From a virus, in the IMG/VR virus record IMGVR_UViG_3300027963_000056, positions 1-64,000 of that record: a DNA stretch of 64,000 nt. The stretch is one strand, 5' to 3'. Positions 3,723 through 64,000 of this stretch are shown piece after piece. The position numbers were made by a program, and so were the translations under genes. The notes below the pieces were generated by a model, which searched no databases, was not told where the DNA came from, and was given only the letters and a program-made list of their open reading frames with translations. Numbering within the stretch: position 1 is the stretch's first letter; each line of letters opens with the position of its first letter.

Positions 3723-4819
3723 GCAAACAACAATACAATTTAAAAACAAAAACAGATTATCTCAGTCGCAAGATGTTCTTGGATCCAGCAGGTCCGGTAA
3801 CCATTCAACGATTTGAAGAAGTCAAATACAACAAACTGGTCAAGTACGAGCAAGAAGCACGTGGCTTCTTCTGGGTTCCAGAAGAAATCTCCTTGACCAA
3901 GGACGCACAAGACTTCAAAGATGCATCAGATACAGTCAAACATATCTTCACCAGCAACCTCTTGCGTCAAACAGCCTTAGACAGTTTGCAAGGCCGTGGC
4001 CCTAGTCAAATTTTTACACCTGTAGTTTCAATTCCTGAACTGGAAGCCTTGGTCTACAACTGGACATTCTTTGAAACCAATATCCATTCACGTAGTTACA
4101 GTCACATCATTCGCAACATCTACAATGTGCCCAAGGATGTGTTCAACACAATTCACGACACACAAGAAATCGTTGACATGGCATCCAGTGTGGGCAATTA
4201 CTATGATCGACTACACATGATCAACTGTCGCAAAGAGTTGCTGGAAGAGTTTCCTGAACGTGAACACATCAAGGCCATCTGGATGGCACTGAATGCAAGT
4301 TATGCCTTAGAAGCATTCCGCTTCATGGTGTCATTTGCCACAAGTTTAGCCATGGTAGAGAATCGTATCTTCATTGGCAATGGCAATATCATTCAGTTGA
4401 TCCTGCAAGATGAAATGCTACACAAAGAGTGGACTGGTTGGTTGATCAATCAGGTGATCAAAGAAGATCCAAGATTTGCTGAGGTCAAGGCCGAATGTGA
4501 AGGCGAAGTATACCAAATGTATCTGGATGTGATTCGTGAAGAAAAAGCCTGGGCCGACTATTTGTTCAACAAAGGTCCAGTGATTGGTCTTAATGCAAAC
4601 ATTCTCAAAGACTTTGTGGACTTCACCGCATTCAATGCACTCAAAGAAATTGGCATCAAGTACACTGAAGAGCATCCACGTTCAACGCCTATTCCTTGGT
4701 TTACCAAGCACGTGGACACCAGCAAGAAGCAGACGGCCTTGCAAGAAAATGAATCAACCAACTATGTGATTGGGATTATGAGCGACAGTATAGATTATGA
4801 GGAGTTACCAGAACTATGA
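3719..4819 (+). CDS. nrdB: Ribonucleoside-diphosphate reductase class Ia, small (beta) subunit
   Basis: 366 residues; houses the di-iron/tyrosyl radical cofactor that starts catalysis in NrdA. Ligand motifs are visible: LDSLQGR (Asp), FFETNIHSRSY (Glu, His and the radical Tyr), YALEAFRF (Glu) and QDEMLH (Glu/His). Compared with the E. coli spacing ETIHSRSY there is one extra residue between the Glu and His, giving ETNIHSRSY. The C-terminal tail (SDSIDYEELPEL) is the acidic peptide that docks to NrdA. I choose the ATG at 3719, which overlaps the preceding stop as ATGA, instead of an in-frame start 33 bases upstream inside the aldolase gene. Confidence 0.96.
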   Translation: MSKQQYNLKTKTDYLSRKMFLDPAGPVTIQRFEEVKYNKLVKYEQEARGFFWVPEEISLTKDAQDFKDASDTVKHIFTSNLLRQTALDSLQGRGPSQIFTPVVSIPELEALVYNWTFFETNIHSRSYSHIIRNIYNVPKDVFNTIHDTQEIVDMASSVGNYYDRLHMINCRKELLEEFPEREHIKAIWMALNASYALEAFRFMVSFATSLAMVENRIFIGNGNIIQLILQDEMLHKEWTGWLINQVIKEDPRFAEVKAECEGEVYQMYLDVIREEKAWADYLFNKGPVIGLNANILKDFVDFTAFNALKEIGIKYTEEHPRSTPIPWFTKHVDTSKKQTALQENESTNYVIGIMSDSIDYEELPEL

Positions 4820-5268
4820 GAAATTTAATTAATTTAATGGAAGACCAAGGCGTTACAGATGCATGGTTTCGTGACGGCGGATTTAAAACTTTTAAAAAGC
4901 CTATTCCTGTTCCATATACTATTGCAAAGCAGGACGGTATTACTAAAACTTTAGAAGGTCCTGTTCCGCATAAGATGGGTCACTACATTATGGGTCCGGG
5001 TCCTAAAGGAGAATTCTGGCCTATGGATCCAGATAACTTTCACAGCAAGTATGATGATAACGGAGATGGCACTGGCACACCAAAAGGCGGCGTTACCAAA
5101 CTGGCCAAACTGGCAGACCATGACGGTATAATTAAAGCCACTTGGGGCAACTTAGAATACACTCGTGGCAACGACTACATTGTGCGTCATGGCCCGGGTG
5201 ATTACGGCCCGGTTAAAAAAGATATCTTTTTCAAAACATACGACACATCACAACTACAAGGAGAATAA
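4816..5268 (+). CDS. PGDYG-motif protein with possible capsid-targeting N-terminus
   Basis: 150 residues. The C-terminal part contains RHGPGDYGPVKKDIFFKTY, which matches the uncharacterised PGDYG domain found in bacteria and phages. The N-terminus MRNLINLMEDQG resembles the start of two other proteins in this window (the protein at 37264-38844 and the superoxide dismutase at 63877) and has an L-x-E suited to T4-type prohead protease cleavage. The start overlaps the nrdB stop by four bases. Biochemical function is unknown; head packaging is my inference from the N-terminal motif. Confidence 0.7.
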   Translation: MRNLINLMEDQGVTDAWFRDGGFKTFKKPIPVPYTIAKQDGITKTLEGPVPHKMGHYIMGPGPKGEFWPMDPDNFHSKYDDNGDGTGTPKGGVTKLAKLADHDGIIKATWGNLEYTRGNDYIVRHGPGDYGPVKKDIFFKTYDTSQLQGE

Positions 5269-20498: not shown

Positions 20499-20951
20499 AT
20501 GACAAAAACTCTCACCCTTCGTAGTTTCGATATTCCCGCACTTCACAAATTTGGTATCGGTTTCGATAACATGTTTGATGATCTCATGCGTGTGAGTACT
20601 CAACAATCCACTTCAAACTATCCACCCTACAACATTGTACAAATCAATGAAGATGAGTACATGATCAGTCTTGCTGTGGCTGGATTTGGGCTTGATAATC
20701 TTTCAGTCACCAAGGACAAAAAGTTCTTGATTATTGAAGGCAAAGAGTATCACCCTGAAAGCGAAAACATCGTGCCAAACTATTTGCACAAAGGAATTAG
20801 CAATAGAGATTTCCGTAGAGAATTCCAACTTGCGGATCATGTGGAAATCAGCAATGCTCACCTTGAACTTGGTATTCTAAGTGTTCACCTGCGACGTGAA
20901 GTGCCAGAAGACGCCAAGCCAAAGACTATTGCTATCACCTACACAGTGTAA
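20499..20951 (+). CDS. Small heat-shock protein, Hsp20/IbpA family
   Basis: 150 residues. The alpha-crystallin domain runs from about 45 to 140 (YNIVQINEDEYMISLAVAGF, FLIIEGKEY, GISNRDFRREFQLADHVEIS) and includes the NAHLELGILSVHL strand containing the conserved G-x-L motif. Binds unfolding proteins and holds them for refolding or degradation. Hsp20 genes are known from T4-like cyanophages; here it sits between clpX-rpsU and clpS, with its own promoter and 5' hairpin, inside a proteostasis block. Strong AAAGGAG site before the ATG. Confidence 0.95.
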   Translation: MTKTLTLRSFDIPALHKFGIGFDNMFDDLMRVSTQQSTSNYPPYNIVQINEDEYMISLAVAGFGLDNLSVTKDKKFLIIEGKEYHPESENIVPNYLHKGISNRDFRREFQLADHVEISNAHLELGILSVHLRREVPEDAKPKTIAITYTV

Positions 20952-21009: not shown

Positions 21010-21321
21010 ATGGCACAAAGCGATACAAGAACACGAATTAAACCTGCTGAAGACTTAAAAGAACCACCAATGTACCGTGTTGTATATCTCAATGACAATC
21101 AAACCACATACGAATTTGTGGTTGAATCGTTGATGCAGTATTTTGATCATACTGTGGAAACTGCTCAAACTATCACTGCTGATATTCACGAAGCCGGATC
21201 GGCTTGTGTGGCAGTGTTACCTTATGAAATTGCCGAACAAAAAGGTATTGAAGTTACCATGTTGGCTCGCGCTCAGAGTTATCCGTTGCAGATCAGAGTC
21301 GAGCCCGAAGGCGTAGTTTAA
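21010..21321 (+). CDS. clpS: ClpS-like N-end rule adaptor
   Basis: 103 residues, like bacterial ClpS (about 106). Matches include KEPPMYRVVYLNDNQTTYEF, where the N-D pair lines the N-degron pocket, and ADIHEAG with the pocket His. In E. coli ClpS delivers proteins with N-terminal Leu, Phe, Tyr or Trp to ClpA. No clpA is present in this window, so the phage adaptor would work with host ClpA, or with an as yet unseen phage unfoldase. The third pocket residue is Asn instead of the usual Asp (NDN versus NDD). Ends tail-to-tail with the next gene, overlapping four bases. Confidence 0.93.
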   Translation: MAQSDTRTRIKPAEDLKEPPMYRVVYLNDNQTTYEFVVESLMQYFDHTVETAQTITADIHEAGSACVAVLPYEIAEQKGIEVTMLARAQSYPLQIRVEPEGVV

Positions 21322-36685: not shown

Positions 36686-37267
36686 ATGATCATGCCAACT
36701 ATTGAAACTACCCCGACAGAACAAACTCACGCCCAAGCACTTGCCGATTCCGGCATGTATGTTTTCATGGGAGATGTAGATGAAGAAAGTATCAAACCAG
36801 TTGTGGAATGGTTGCTTTACGAAAACTATGTGACCAAGAAAAAGAAAAAAGAACTACTGCTCATGGTCTGCTCCAACGGAGGAGACATGGGTGCGGCCTT
36901 TGCCTTGATTGATGTCATGATGAGTTCTCGAATTCCAGTAAAAACTGTGGGACTAGGAACCATTGCATCAGCAGGCTTGCTAATCTTCATATCCGGCACT
37001 CACGGACGCCGGGTGCTCACTCCCAACACAAGTATTCTAAGCCATCAGTTCTCATGGTACAACGAAGGCAAGGCACATGAGTTGTTTGCTACCATGCGTG
37101 AGTTTGAACTCACACAGGCTCGAATGATTGCACACTATGAATTGTGTACAGGACTGGGTCGGGAAGAAATACGCACGAACCTGTTGCCACCACAAGACAT
37201 CTGGCTGTCAGCCCAAGAAGCACTAGCACTGGGCATCTGCGATGACATCAGTGTGGTCAAGAGTTAA
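36686..37267 (+). CDS. ClpP-family serine protease, divergent
   Basis: 193 residues with the ClpP fold: VCSNGGDMGAAFALID (oxyanion Gly-Gly loop), Ser95 in GTIASAGLL, His120 in SHQFSW and Asp171 in PPQDIWLSA; the spacing Ser-25-His-51-Asp is identical to the canonical ClpP at 38896. The N-terminal 20 residues that in ClpP form the axial pore and the hydrophobic docking strand differ, so it may form a mixed barrel or act with a different partner. There is no ribosome-binding site before the ATG at 36686 (an alternative ATG is at 36692). Confidence 0.9.
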   Translation: MIMPTIETTPTEQTHAQALADSGMYVFMGDVDEESIKPVVEWLLYENYVTKKKKKELLLMVCSNGGDMGAAFALIDVMMSSRIPVKTVGLGTIASAGLLIFISGTHGRRVLTPNTSILSHQFSWYNEGKAHELFATMREFELTQARMIAHYELCTGLGREEIRTNLLPPQDIWLSAQEALALGICDDISVVKS

Positions 37268-38844
37268 CCTTTTTTCTTACGTCCCAGCGTCTTTTCGTCA
37301 AAGTCGGGCTCTTGACTTTGTCTGGATGCTCGAGCACCTGGACCAGACAGTCTAGGTTCAGAACCTACCTGATCAAGTTTTGCATTCTCAGCATCAGTGT
37401 CGCCTACCGCAGTGGTGGTTACATCAGTATCCTTATTGCCACCACCGTTGTAACTAAAACTCACACGCCCAATAATACCGGTAGCCGCATAAACTTTAGT
37501 AGCATCTAGTCCCACAGTTCCTTTGAAATCTGGCGGATATTTACTGGTAAATCCAGTGACAGTATAATTGCCGGATTTTTCAGACCCGTTTAGGTGCAAC
37601 TGAATAATAGGACTGGAGTTAAGAAACTTTAAACAAGCCTCACCAAACTTGGGATCTGAATTTACGTTCTTGGCCACACGTCGAGCCAAGGCGGCCAAAG
37701 TGTGATACCCTGTATTGTAACGTGGGTTATCTGTTTTGGCATTGATGTCACCCATAAGATCCAGGATAGTCGGATTGGTAGGTGTGGCATTGGTTTTAAC
37801 CAACTGCTTTATTTCTGCTCCAGTGTCCTGATCAATGATGCCTTGCTCTATGCCATACACTATGGGAAAGTCTATAGCACTCATGGATCCAATTTTTTCA
37901 ATAATTTCCACCTGCGACGCATACGTGTCAAGCAACTCAGTCATGCCCTTGTTACGTGCAGTAGTCACACCATCCGAAATATTTTTAACTGATGCCGACG
38001 CACCTTTTTCACCCTTGCTAGAGATACCAATCTCTATACCACTTGGATGAAACAAGTAACTGTCTACTAGACCGTTGTTTTTGTCAGCTGGGAAATTGAT
38101 CGCGCTTCCATCATAGGTACCATCTTTGCCAAGTATATCTTTACGTGCGGCTTCAGCACCCACTCCCATATCCATGCCCTGGATCAAAGCAATAGGCCCA
38201 ATGGTTTCTCCTAGGTCATCACGCACAGCAGTGACCATGTCGCCCATGTTTTCAAACTTTGGCAATTGACCAGCCAGCAACTGATCCATGCCAGGTCGTA
38301 CTTTATCAATGCTGGCCATTTGATCGGGTGTTGTTCCTGGTCTAGTGCCCATGGCAGCCACGGTATCTGATGGAGTATCGAACGTAGAATTTGCTGGAAA
38401 CAAGTCAGCAGGTTTGAGTTTGTAATACGCACCTTTTAAACTTACTGCTTTGTTCAATTGCCAACCTCCGGGCAGTTCGGAGTTTTTCCAAAAGCCCGCC
38501 ATGTCAGGTTTTATTTCATTGAAAAATCTACCAAAATATGTTTGTTGCCCGGCCTCGGGACCGTTGAATGTAACAATAGCAAAGGCCTTGCTGGCTTGTG
38601 TGGGTTTGTTACTCCAAGTAATACTGGGATATTGTTTGAACAAATCTGCACCTGTTAGCGACATTTCATCATAGTTGGCATAGGCACCTGGCATGCCAGG
38701 AAAGTAGTCAACCTTGTCAAATACAATTTCAGCAGTGGGGTTATCCTTGGATCCTTGGAAAAACGAGTCGCCCGCATCGCGATACAATAGGCCACGACTT
38801 TTTTCCATAAGAACATTATCAAGTAAATTGAGTAGATCACGCAT
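37264..38844 (-). CDS. Large protein with possible capsid-targeting N-terminus
   Basis: 526 residues. It begins [20 protein letters not shown], like the PGDYG protein and the superoxide dismutase, with an L-M-E suited to prohead-protease cleavage, and ends in a very basic KTLGRKKKG. The centre has [20 protein letters not shown], an arrangement of Asp, Glu and Lys vaguely like a PD-(D/E)xK nuclease core, but this is weak. A head-internal protein, possibly injected with DNA, is my preferred reading. Convergent with the ClpP-like gene and divergent from the canonical clpP. Confidence 0.65.
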
Positions 38845-62315: not shown

Positions 62316-63869
62316 ATGTATCATATAAAATTGAGTGATCCAGCAAATCAAGTACTGTTCCTTGGCAACAACGATGAATCTACAGACCGGCTCGTGACGA
62401 TATTGGCAAAGAAACACAAAACTATCAATCACGGTCTTGTTTCAGAATCAGAGTTTGATCCTTCTTTGCCGGGATTTTATCATACTACCATTGTGGATAT
62501 TCCTTTTGGAAATTTAATTGGATTTGCACAAAAATTTGACTTGATTGTTATGTTGGATCAACCACAATCCCAATGGAGTCATTGGAAGTGTCTGCAGGCC
62601 ACTTTCAAGTTGATGTTGAAACTGGAAGAACTCAACAAACCCACTGTGTTTCGAGATAACAAAAATATAAAGAAGATTTTATATTGGTCTGATTTAGTAT
62701 ATAAACAAAATAAAAGTTTTTGCATATATCCATGGATCACTTTTGTAGATGATGGCGACAGGTTAAAATTGTGTTCTCGAGATGGTCCTGGCATAACAAC
62801 CAAAGACAAATTCACGGAATGGACAACAGACCCAGCCTACACCCAAATTCGAAACAAAATGTTACAAGGAGAACTTCTACCGGATCATTGTAAAACTTGT
62901 TACAAGTACGAAGAACATGGCATCGAAAGTTACAGACAATTTGAAACCATGGACTGGGTAGTTCCATTGGAATTAGAAAATATTGAAGATTTATCTAGAC
63001 TTCAAAAACCCTATTTTTATGAAGTACATGCAGGAAATCACTGCAACATCAAATGCAGAGGTTGTCAGCCCGGCAAAAGTGCGCCAATTGGCAAAGAAAT
63101 AAAAAAGTTCGATATCAAAGTTCCATTTCCAATAAGTTGGAAGCCAAATGCTTCTTCAATAGATTCAATAGACATCGATACATTAGACAAAAAAACTTCA
63201 GTATATTTTCAAGGCGGTGAACCCACTATCATGCCCGAAGTATTGAATTTTATGAAACAATGTATAGCAAAAAACAAAACTGATTTTTTCCTTACCATGG
63301 CCACCAATGGGGTTAAGTTTTCTGATGAATTCTTGGAAACAATTTCACATTTTTCCAACACTAATTTTAGTTTTAGTCTAGATGGTTATGCAAAGATCAA
63401 CGACTACTGGAGATCTGGAACTAACTGGAAAAAAGTCATAGCAAATGCACACATGTTGCAAGCCCGCGGCCATGCTATCAGCATTAACAGTGTACCGGGC
63501 ATTTACAATGTGACCAATTTGCATTTGTTGTTTGAGTTTTTGGATCGCGAATTTCCGTTCACTGCCATTTATGTTCAAGTCAATCATTTGCCCGCACAAT
63601 CAGCCCTAAATCACCCTCTTAAAGATCTAGTGATAGAATCCATGCTCAAATGTATGAAAACCTCAGTTTATCATTCAAACGGTAAAAGTTGCAAAAGTGG
63701 TATAGACAGCATTTACAATCATTATATCAATGATCCTGTTTGCAACATCAAAGATCTTCGAGACTTTTTTGATTATAATGATCAACTGGACCGTGTGCGT
63801 GGCACAAAGTTGGCAGATTTTATACCCGAATTAGAAGCCGCAAGAAGTTACATCGCGGAATTAAAATAA
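62316..63869 (+). CDS. Radical SAM protein with twitch/SPASM-type Cys motifs
   Basis: 517 residues. The N-terminal ~110 residues are a separate alpha/beta domain. FCIYPWITFVDDGDRLKLCS and HCKTCYKYEEHGIESYRQ form an auxiliary cluster site, then C243-x3-C247-x2-C250 (HCNIKCRGC) and FQGGEPTIMPE (GGE). Same general plan as the protein at 39486, with a larger N-terminus. Substrate unknown; AT-rich codon use distinguishes it from neighbours. Confidence 0.88.
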   Translation: MYHIKLSDPANQVLFLGNNDESTDRLVTILAKKHKTINHGLVSESEFDPSLPGFYHTTIVDIPFGNLIGFAQKFDLIVMLDQPQSQWSHWKCLQATFKLMLKLEELNKPTVFRDNKNIKKILYWSDLVYKQNKSFCIYPWITFVDDGDRLKLCSRDGPGITTKDKFTEWTTDPAYTQIRNKMLQGELLPDHCKTCYKYEEHGIESYRQFETMDWVVPLELENIEDLSRLQKPYFYEVHAGNHCNIKCRGCQPGKSAPIGKEIKKFDIKVPFPISWKPNASSIDSIDIDTLDKKTSVYFQGGEPTIMPEVLNFMKQCIAKNKTDFFLTMATNGVKFSDEFLETISHFSNTNFSFSLDGYAKINDYWRSGTNWKKVIANAHMLQARGHAISINSVPGIYNVTNLHLLFEFLDREFPFTAIYVQVNHLPAQSALNHPLKDLVIESMLKCMKTSVYHSNGKSCKSGIDSIYNHYINDPVCNIKDLRDFFDYNDQLDRVRGTKLADFIPELEAARSYIAELK

Positions 63870-63873
63870 ATAC
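63866..63873 (+). promoter_or_regulatory. Late-type element ATAAATAC, three bases before an ATG
   Basis: ATAAATAC-AAG-ATG at 63877; no ribosome-binding site. Late expression would fit a virion-packaged enzyme. Confidence 0.6.
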
Positions 63874-63876
63874 AAG

Positions 63877-64000
63877 ATGAAAATACGTGACTCAATCAAT
63901 CTAGTAGAAGCCAGCACTCGTCCATCAAAACTGGAAACTACCCCTCTTCCTTACGGCGAAAAAGATCTTGAGCCAGTGCTGAGCAAAGAAAGTTTGGAAT
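63877..64000 (+). CDS. Iron/manganese superoxide dismutase, N-terminal fragment
   Basis: The 41 visible codons read MKIRDSINLVEASTRPSKLE followed by TTPLPYGEKDLEPVLSKESL. The second half matches the conserved start of Fe/Mn superoxide dismutases (LPY-x3-x-LEP-x-[IL]-S-x-E). The first 18 residues are extra and carry the R-D-x-I-N-L-x-E motif shared with the proteins at 4816 and 37264, suggesting a cleavable head-targeting peptide. The catalytic metal ligands lie beyond the window. The assignment rests on a short but distinctive match. Confidence 0.75.
   Translation, partial: MKIRDSINLVEASTRPSKLETTPLPYGEKDLEPVLSKESLE

Follow-up and report, generated by a model that had tools for sequence, protein, structure and literature searches.

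A jumbo-phage superoxide dismutase with a predicted T4-type capsid-targeting propeptide

Analysis of a 64,000-base stretch of viral DNA (hereinafter, the window), positions 1 to 64,000 of a parent record of 93,911 bases, points to a superoxide dismutase (SOD) that is likely made late in infection, bears a T4-type capsid-targeting propeptide, is packaged and trimmed and is probably ejected together with the phage DNA. Under this scheme, in which late transcription, docking, cleavage, packaging in this particular phage, injection and enzymatic activity are all predicted steps, the SOD of a T4-like jumbo phage would be docked by the propeptide MKIRDSINLVE in the prohead's scaffold core, and the T4-type prohead protease of the phage would cut after Glu11, leaving the mature SOD (ASTRPSKLETTPLPYG...) inside the head. 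The mature enzyme would then most likely enter the host with the DNA and remove superoxide early in infection, which could protect iron-sulfur and other oxidant-sensitive enzymes.

The SOD open reading frame (ORF) starts with an ATG at position 63877 on the plus strand and is open at the end of the window; the complete ORF occupies 63877..64425 of the parent record and encodes a protein of 182 amino acids that begins with MKIRDSINLVEASTRPSKLETTPLPYGEKDLEPVLSKESLEYHYG.... The elements of this region that are relevant for the subsequent analysis are:

63865..63872, plus strand: AATAAATA, a late-promoter-like octamer that ends 4 nt before the ATG and shares bases with the stop codon of the gene upstream.
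63877..64000, plus strand: 5' part of the SOD gene (residues 1-41), with the remainder extending to 64425 of the parent record.
63877..63909, plus strand: predicted capsid-targeting propeptide MKIRDSINLVE, with the predicted cut after Glu11 (codon 63907-63909) and Ala12 as the putative start of the mature protein.
63910..63942, plus strand: linker ASTRPSKLETT, which connects the predicted cut to the SOD domain and shows strong conservation within the close clade.
63943..64000, plus strand: start of the SOD domain (PLPYGEKDLEPVLSKESLE...), with the PF00081 match from residue 22 and the alignment with solved SODs from residues 19-21.

An earlier note on this DNA, which saw the 5' part of the gene, called it a dismutase and proposed to look for the metal ligands in the rest of the gene; the sequence beyond the window bears this out, with both Pfam domains, all four ligands and the SOD fold. 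The 182-amino-acid protein matches PF02777 (Sod_Fe_C; E 3e-20, 72.6 bits) and PF00081 (Sod_Fe_N; E 1e-6, 29.6 bits), in both cases above the cut-off. The ligands (three His and one Asp), namely H43, H72, D148 and H152, are invariant in the alignment of homologs down to 32-44% identity, and so is H137, which is probably the counterpart of the C-terminal water-coordinating His used by most SodFM3/4 enzymes (PMC10172142); Y51, GSGW119-122 and E151 are invariant in this alignment as well. A Gly four positions before the second His was found in 230 sequences, and at D-2, Leu is present in 229 of 232. The HXXXHH motif of most SodFM subfamilies (PMC10172142), a subfamily feature that does not define the family as a whole, is not matched in the window SOD, where the corresponding sequence is HYGHLA and the first His alone is retained. 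The AF2 model of the SOD (pLDDT 88.5) has a confident body, with TM-scores of about 0.7-0.8 to SODs from the PDB. Among solved structures, the closest relatives are Fe/Mn SODs, including the enzymes of Bacteroides fragilis and Porphyromonas gingivalis, with which the window SOD shares the fold, the four ligands and the active-site Tyr and Trp; the water-coordinating C-terminal His is probably shared with most SodFM3/4. The differences from the cellular SodFM are a shorter hairpin, the lone first His of HXXXHH, Leu at D-2 and the N-terminal tag. Altogether, the protein belongs to the Fe/Mn SOD family as a divergent representative and is predicted to be active. The SodFM survey (PMC10172142) contains no mention of viruses or phages.

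The solved cellular SODs align with the phage protein from query residues ~19-21, which correspond to chain residues ~3-5, so that about 18 N-terminal residues are extra. Thus, the 18-residue extension described in the earlier note is real, and the L-V-E that the note matched to the (I/L)-x-E rule of the T4 prohead protease is found at residues 9-11, followed by A12, with the rule retained across the viral homologs. In the AF2 model, the N-terminal stretch lies off the fold and is of low confidence (pLDDT below 50 for residues 4-13, with a helix at residues 3-12).

Among 100 distinct close homologs, the position before the predicted cut (P1) is invariably Glu (100 of 100), Leu (87) or Ile (13) is found at P3, P2 accommodates V, I or L, and Ala follows the cut (P1') in 96, whereas P4 is occupied by ten different residues, the other tag residues vary too, and the length of the tag from Met to Glu ranges from 8 to 15. 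The conserved positions are encoded by different synonymous codons (two for Glu, six for Leu and three for Ile). As the tag keeps Leu or Ile at P3 and Glu at P1 in every one of these homologs although its other residues vary, its (L/I)xE end is beyond chance.

In distant viral SODs, the whole tag is swapped and the (L/I)xE end is kept, as in MAYNFIQKFIVE/G, MYNFIRYVSLNE/G, MSYNFIRQFITE/G, MRDLLSIVE/T, MYDIVEKISE/S and MNNEIERYLAILE/G (the slash marks the putative cut); additional tags of distant SODs are MRDLITLTE/E, MNNLRDLITLIE/D and MRAVEFLTE/S. The motif is present in 22 of the 24 viral SOD clusters delineated at 70% identity, and the two exceptions contain I-x-E nearer a Met. An automated re-count with mis-set anchors recovered the tag in 17 of 22 clusters; of its five misses, L214, L261, L269 and L270 read as (L/I)xE and L234 is ambiguous. 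The loose (L/I)xE pattern is also matched by 15-19% of the ordinary N-termini of phage proteins, and the SOD homologs share ancestry, so that the motif counts are not independent and the binomial values are a guide only. Both considerations speak for (L/I)xE being a chance or inherited feature without a function, but this explanation appears highly improbable given the synonymous codon variation at P3 and P1, the variable tag length, and the retention of the motif by otherwise unrelated tags in nearly all clusters.

The SOD of Vibrio phage 2.275.O (L005:7968-8537) has no N-terminal tag. This protein has a C-terminal extension, ...KMLDE/SVNIRHLINFISK, which includes an L-D-E site, resembles the IRxxIN tag and is possibly a C-terminal propeptide; the Alt protein of T4 is processed C-terminally (PMC9026906).

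Similar tags are not limited to SODs. The earlier note likened the extension to the starts of two unrelated phage proteins, a comparison that holds for the first of the following ORFs and departs at the Glu in the second one:

4816..5268, plus strand: unrelated 150-amino-acid ORF that starts with MRNLINLME/D, a tag of the same type (Pfam PGDYG match below the cut-off).
37264..38844, minus strand: unrelated 526-amino-acid ORF that starts with MRDLLNLLD, with Asp in place of the Glu of the SOD and L-M-E at residues 12-14.

The homolog of the latter ORF in G001, a 345 kb relative whose SOD is 93% identical to the window SOD, is located at 68638, starts with MRDLINILD and has TAAATA just upstream. 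Other unrelated genes of the window phage, G001 and the distant relative G015 start with MKINDILVE, MKITDILSE, MKANEFITE, MRAREFITE, MRAHEFIVE, MRAQDFIVE, MKTLKDYLTE, MRAKEFINE or MRASEFIVE. The T4 tag is MKTYQEFIAE, and the tags on these genes resemble it in sequence. The MRAVEFLTE tag found on some SODs belongs to this type as well and thereby connects the SOD tag with those of the other genes. A stringent form of the tag was detected at 5 of the 536 candidate N-termini of G001 compared to 0 of 1488 internal Met (p 0.001); a third motif, [ILF][ND][LI]xE, showed no enrichment at N-termini over internal Met. In the parent record, several genes bearing T4-type tags (MKINDILVE, MRAQEFVTE, MKITDILSE and MKANEFITE) are clustered at 87087-91549, and their products are candidates for further capsid cargo. 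The tagged protein at 87087 contains a short domain common to families annotated as virion structural protein.

In T4, gp21 cleaves after L/I-X-E, ten residues of IPIII suffice for packaging, and the infecting phage carries foreign proteins that are fused to the tag into the host (PMC9026906). We did not find a gp21-family protease (PF03420) in the 94-kb parent record, itself a fragment; most of the near-complete relatives encode this family, namely 10 of the 14 large close ones, phage PA5oct, Vibrio phage 2.275.O and 2 of 5 further, distant relatives. The capsid proteins of G001 (RKYLKE/NASAG) and PA5oct (KRFLVE/NASAG) contain a putative LxE/NASAG cleavage site near the likely start of the mature protein. 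The window SOD shares with IPI, IPII and IPIII of T4 a short N-terminal tag ending in (L/I)xE, a gp21-family protease in its relatives, and modularity of the tag between proteins (PMC9026906). However, the predicted cargo is a conserved enzyme as opposed to the small basic proteins of T4, and the tag of the window clade, xxIRxxINLVE, differs in sequence from that of T4.

A homolog of the SOD, EST35_0261 (38% identity), is encoded by PA5oct and is deposited as a 'hypothetical protein' with an ESI-MS/MS note. Its N-terminal sequence is MNDSIKKYISIAE, and the tag ends in IAE/A; like sodB of phages MIJ3 and Callisto, this homolog has its own tag with this end, unlike the window tag in sequence. 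Superoxide goes unmentioned in the publications on MIJ3 and Callisto. The ESI-MS/MS note is attached to 93 PA5oct genes, most of which are called structural protein, and the abstract of the PA5oct omics paper reportedly gives 93 virion-associated proteins. The retention of (I/L)xE across otherwise unrelated tags, the presence of PF03420 in the relatives and the PA5oct mass spectrometry note jointly support the capsid-targeting interpretation offered in the earlier note, in which cleavage, packaging in this phage and injection are predictions.

The PA5oct ESI-MS/MS set also includes ribonucleotide reductase and thymidylate synthase; with such non-structural enzymes in the set, carry-over is possible for the SOD. 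The SOD could then be an ordinary auxiliary metabolic enzyme of the infected cell, with the extension forming a structural helix or an interaction tail and the PA5oct detection resulting from lysate carry-over. This explanation is compatible with the sharing of the mass spectrometry note by other metabolic enzymes, with the tagless N-terminus of the Vibrio phage SOD, and with the literature, where phage Fe/Mn SODs are mentioned as auxiliary genes and are proposed to buffer the oxidative stress of the host (PMC12542629). Nevertheless, we consider it improbable: a structural helix is not expected to fix a Glu and a Leu/Ile two positions before it while the rest is replaced, the AF2 model places the segment off the fold with low confidence, and unrelated genes bear similar tags.

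As a predictor of PA5oct virion proteins, the loose (L/I)xE pattern was rejected, being not enriched among the proteins with the mass spectrometry note (15 of 93 vs 39 of 181); (L/I)xE followed by A, S or G weakly predicts detection (5 of 93 vs 2 of 181; p 0.047). The PA5oct protein EST35_0152 (MK797984 84079-84711), annotated as 'prohead assembly (scaffolding) protein', is a gp21-type protease by PF03420, and EST35_0153, which carries no mass spectrometry note, looks like the true scaffold.

The octamer upstream of the SOD gene is not an isolated case: TAAATA is found a few bases ahead of the ATG in most SOD loci, whatever gene is upstream. In G001, TAAATA precedes 34 ORF starts, including that of the portal gene, by 4-7 nt, and in G015, 25 ORFs have it 4-5 nt before the ATG. 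This element looks like a T4-type late promoter that abuts the start codon, an arrangement that would yield a late, nearly leaderless mRNA.

Directly upstream of the SOD gene is a Radical-SAM gene (PF04055; 62316-63869 of the window), with several paralogue-like matches in G001. Downstream, a gene for an A-type Fe-S carrier (PF01521; 64425-64745 of the parent record) overlaps the SOD stop codon. The signature of this carrier is present within 900 nt downstream of the SOD in 134 of the 156 close loci (including copies of one contig) and in 29 of the 77 distant ones, consistent with the protection as well as the repair of Fe-S enzymes.

Ejection of the SOD and its retention in the head are not separable from sequence, and the tag could be a genuine packaging and cleavage signal of an enzyme that guards the particle (such as its packaged DNA when the water is sunlit) or helps only during assembly and is not an injected effector. 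The close relatives come mostly from environmental contigs (freshwater-type metagenomes), sunlight exposure being an assumption, and the virion of chlorovirus PBCV-1 contains a packaged SOD (PMC7019647). On balance, we find this alternative rather unlikely because foreign proteins fused to the T4 tag reach the host on infection (PMC9026906), and because the Fe-S carrier gene in most of the close loci points to the protection of cell metabolism. The PBCV-1 enzyme, the Cu/Zn SOD A245R, is a precedent for a virus-packaged SOD: like the window SOD, for which late synthesis and presence in the particle are predicted, it is virus-encoded, late and contained in the particle, and it has been proposed to lower superoxide on infection (PMC7019647). 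The two differ in that A245R belongs to the Cu/Zn rather than the Fe/Mn family, comes from a virus of eukaryotes, and has no gp21-type propeptide described.

Our literature search yielded no paper linking a phage SOD to capsid targeting. Beyond the window phage, the odds seem slightly in favor of a general enzyme-loading route in the T4-like jumbo-phage lineage, whereby a fast-evolving, functionally conserved and exchangeable tag packages SOD and other cargo, and hundreds of environmental phages deliver an antioxidant enzyme. If this is the case, a redox enzyme arrives with the infecting phage, which places oxidative stress within the earliest phage-host conflict, and T4-style capsid targeting serves jumbo phages as a general route for cargo. 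Other injected proteins would then be predictable by a sequence rule that is easy to read. With a homolog present in the cultured phage PA5oct, this reading is testable now.

A scan of viral contigs with the SOD protein detected 260 relatives, several of these on contigs of 200-364 kb, which suggests that the parent genome is probably that of a jumbo phage of about 340 kb. Among public phage records, the nearest matches come from the PA5oct group of Pseudomonas jumbo phages, with 38% identity, and from Vibrio phage 2.275.O, with 41%; a search of viral contigs for relatives of the latter's SOD found none. The scan of cellular genomes gave two distant matches only, and no recent host origin of the SOD was found. 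In PA5oct, genes for an Hsp20-like protein and ClpS directly precede the SOD gene, and in Vibrio phage 2.275.O, a ClpS-like gene is located three genes upstream; the proximity of SOD to ClpS in both phages suggests old descent within the lineage. In the window, the homologs of these PA5oct neighbors, an Hsp20-like gene (20499-20951) and a ClpS-like gene (21010-21321), are 43 kb away from the SOD gene; judging from this gene order, an old Hsp20/ClpS/SOD cluster is broken up in the window phage.
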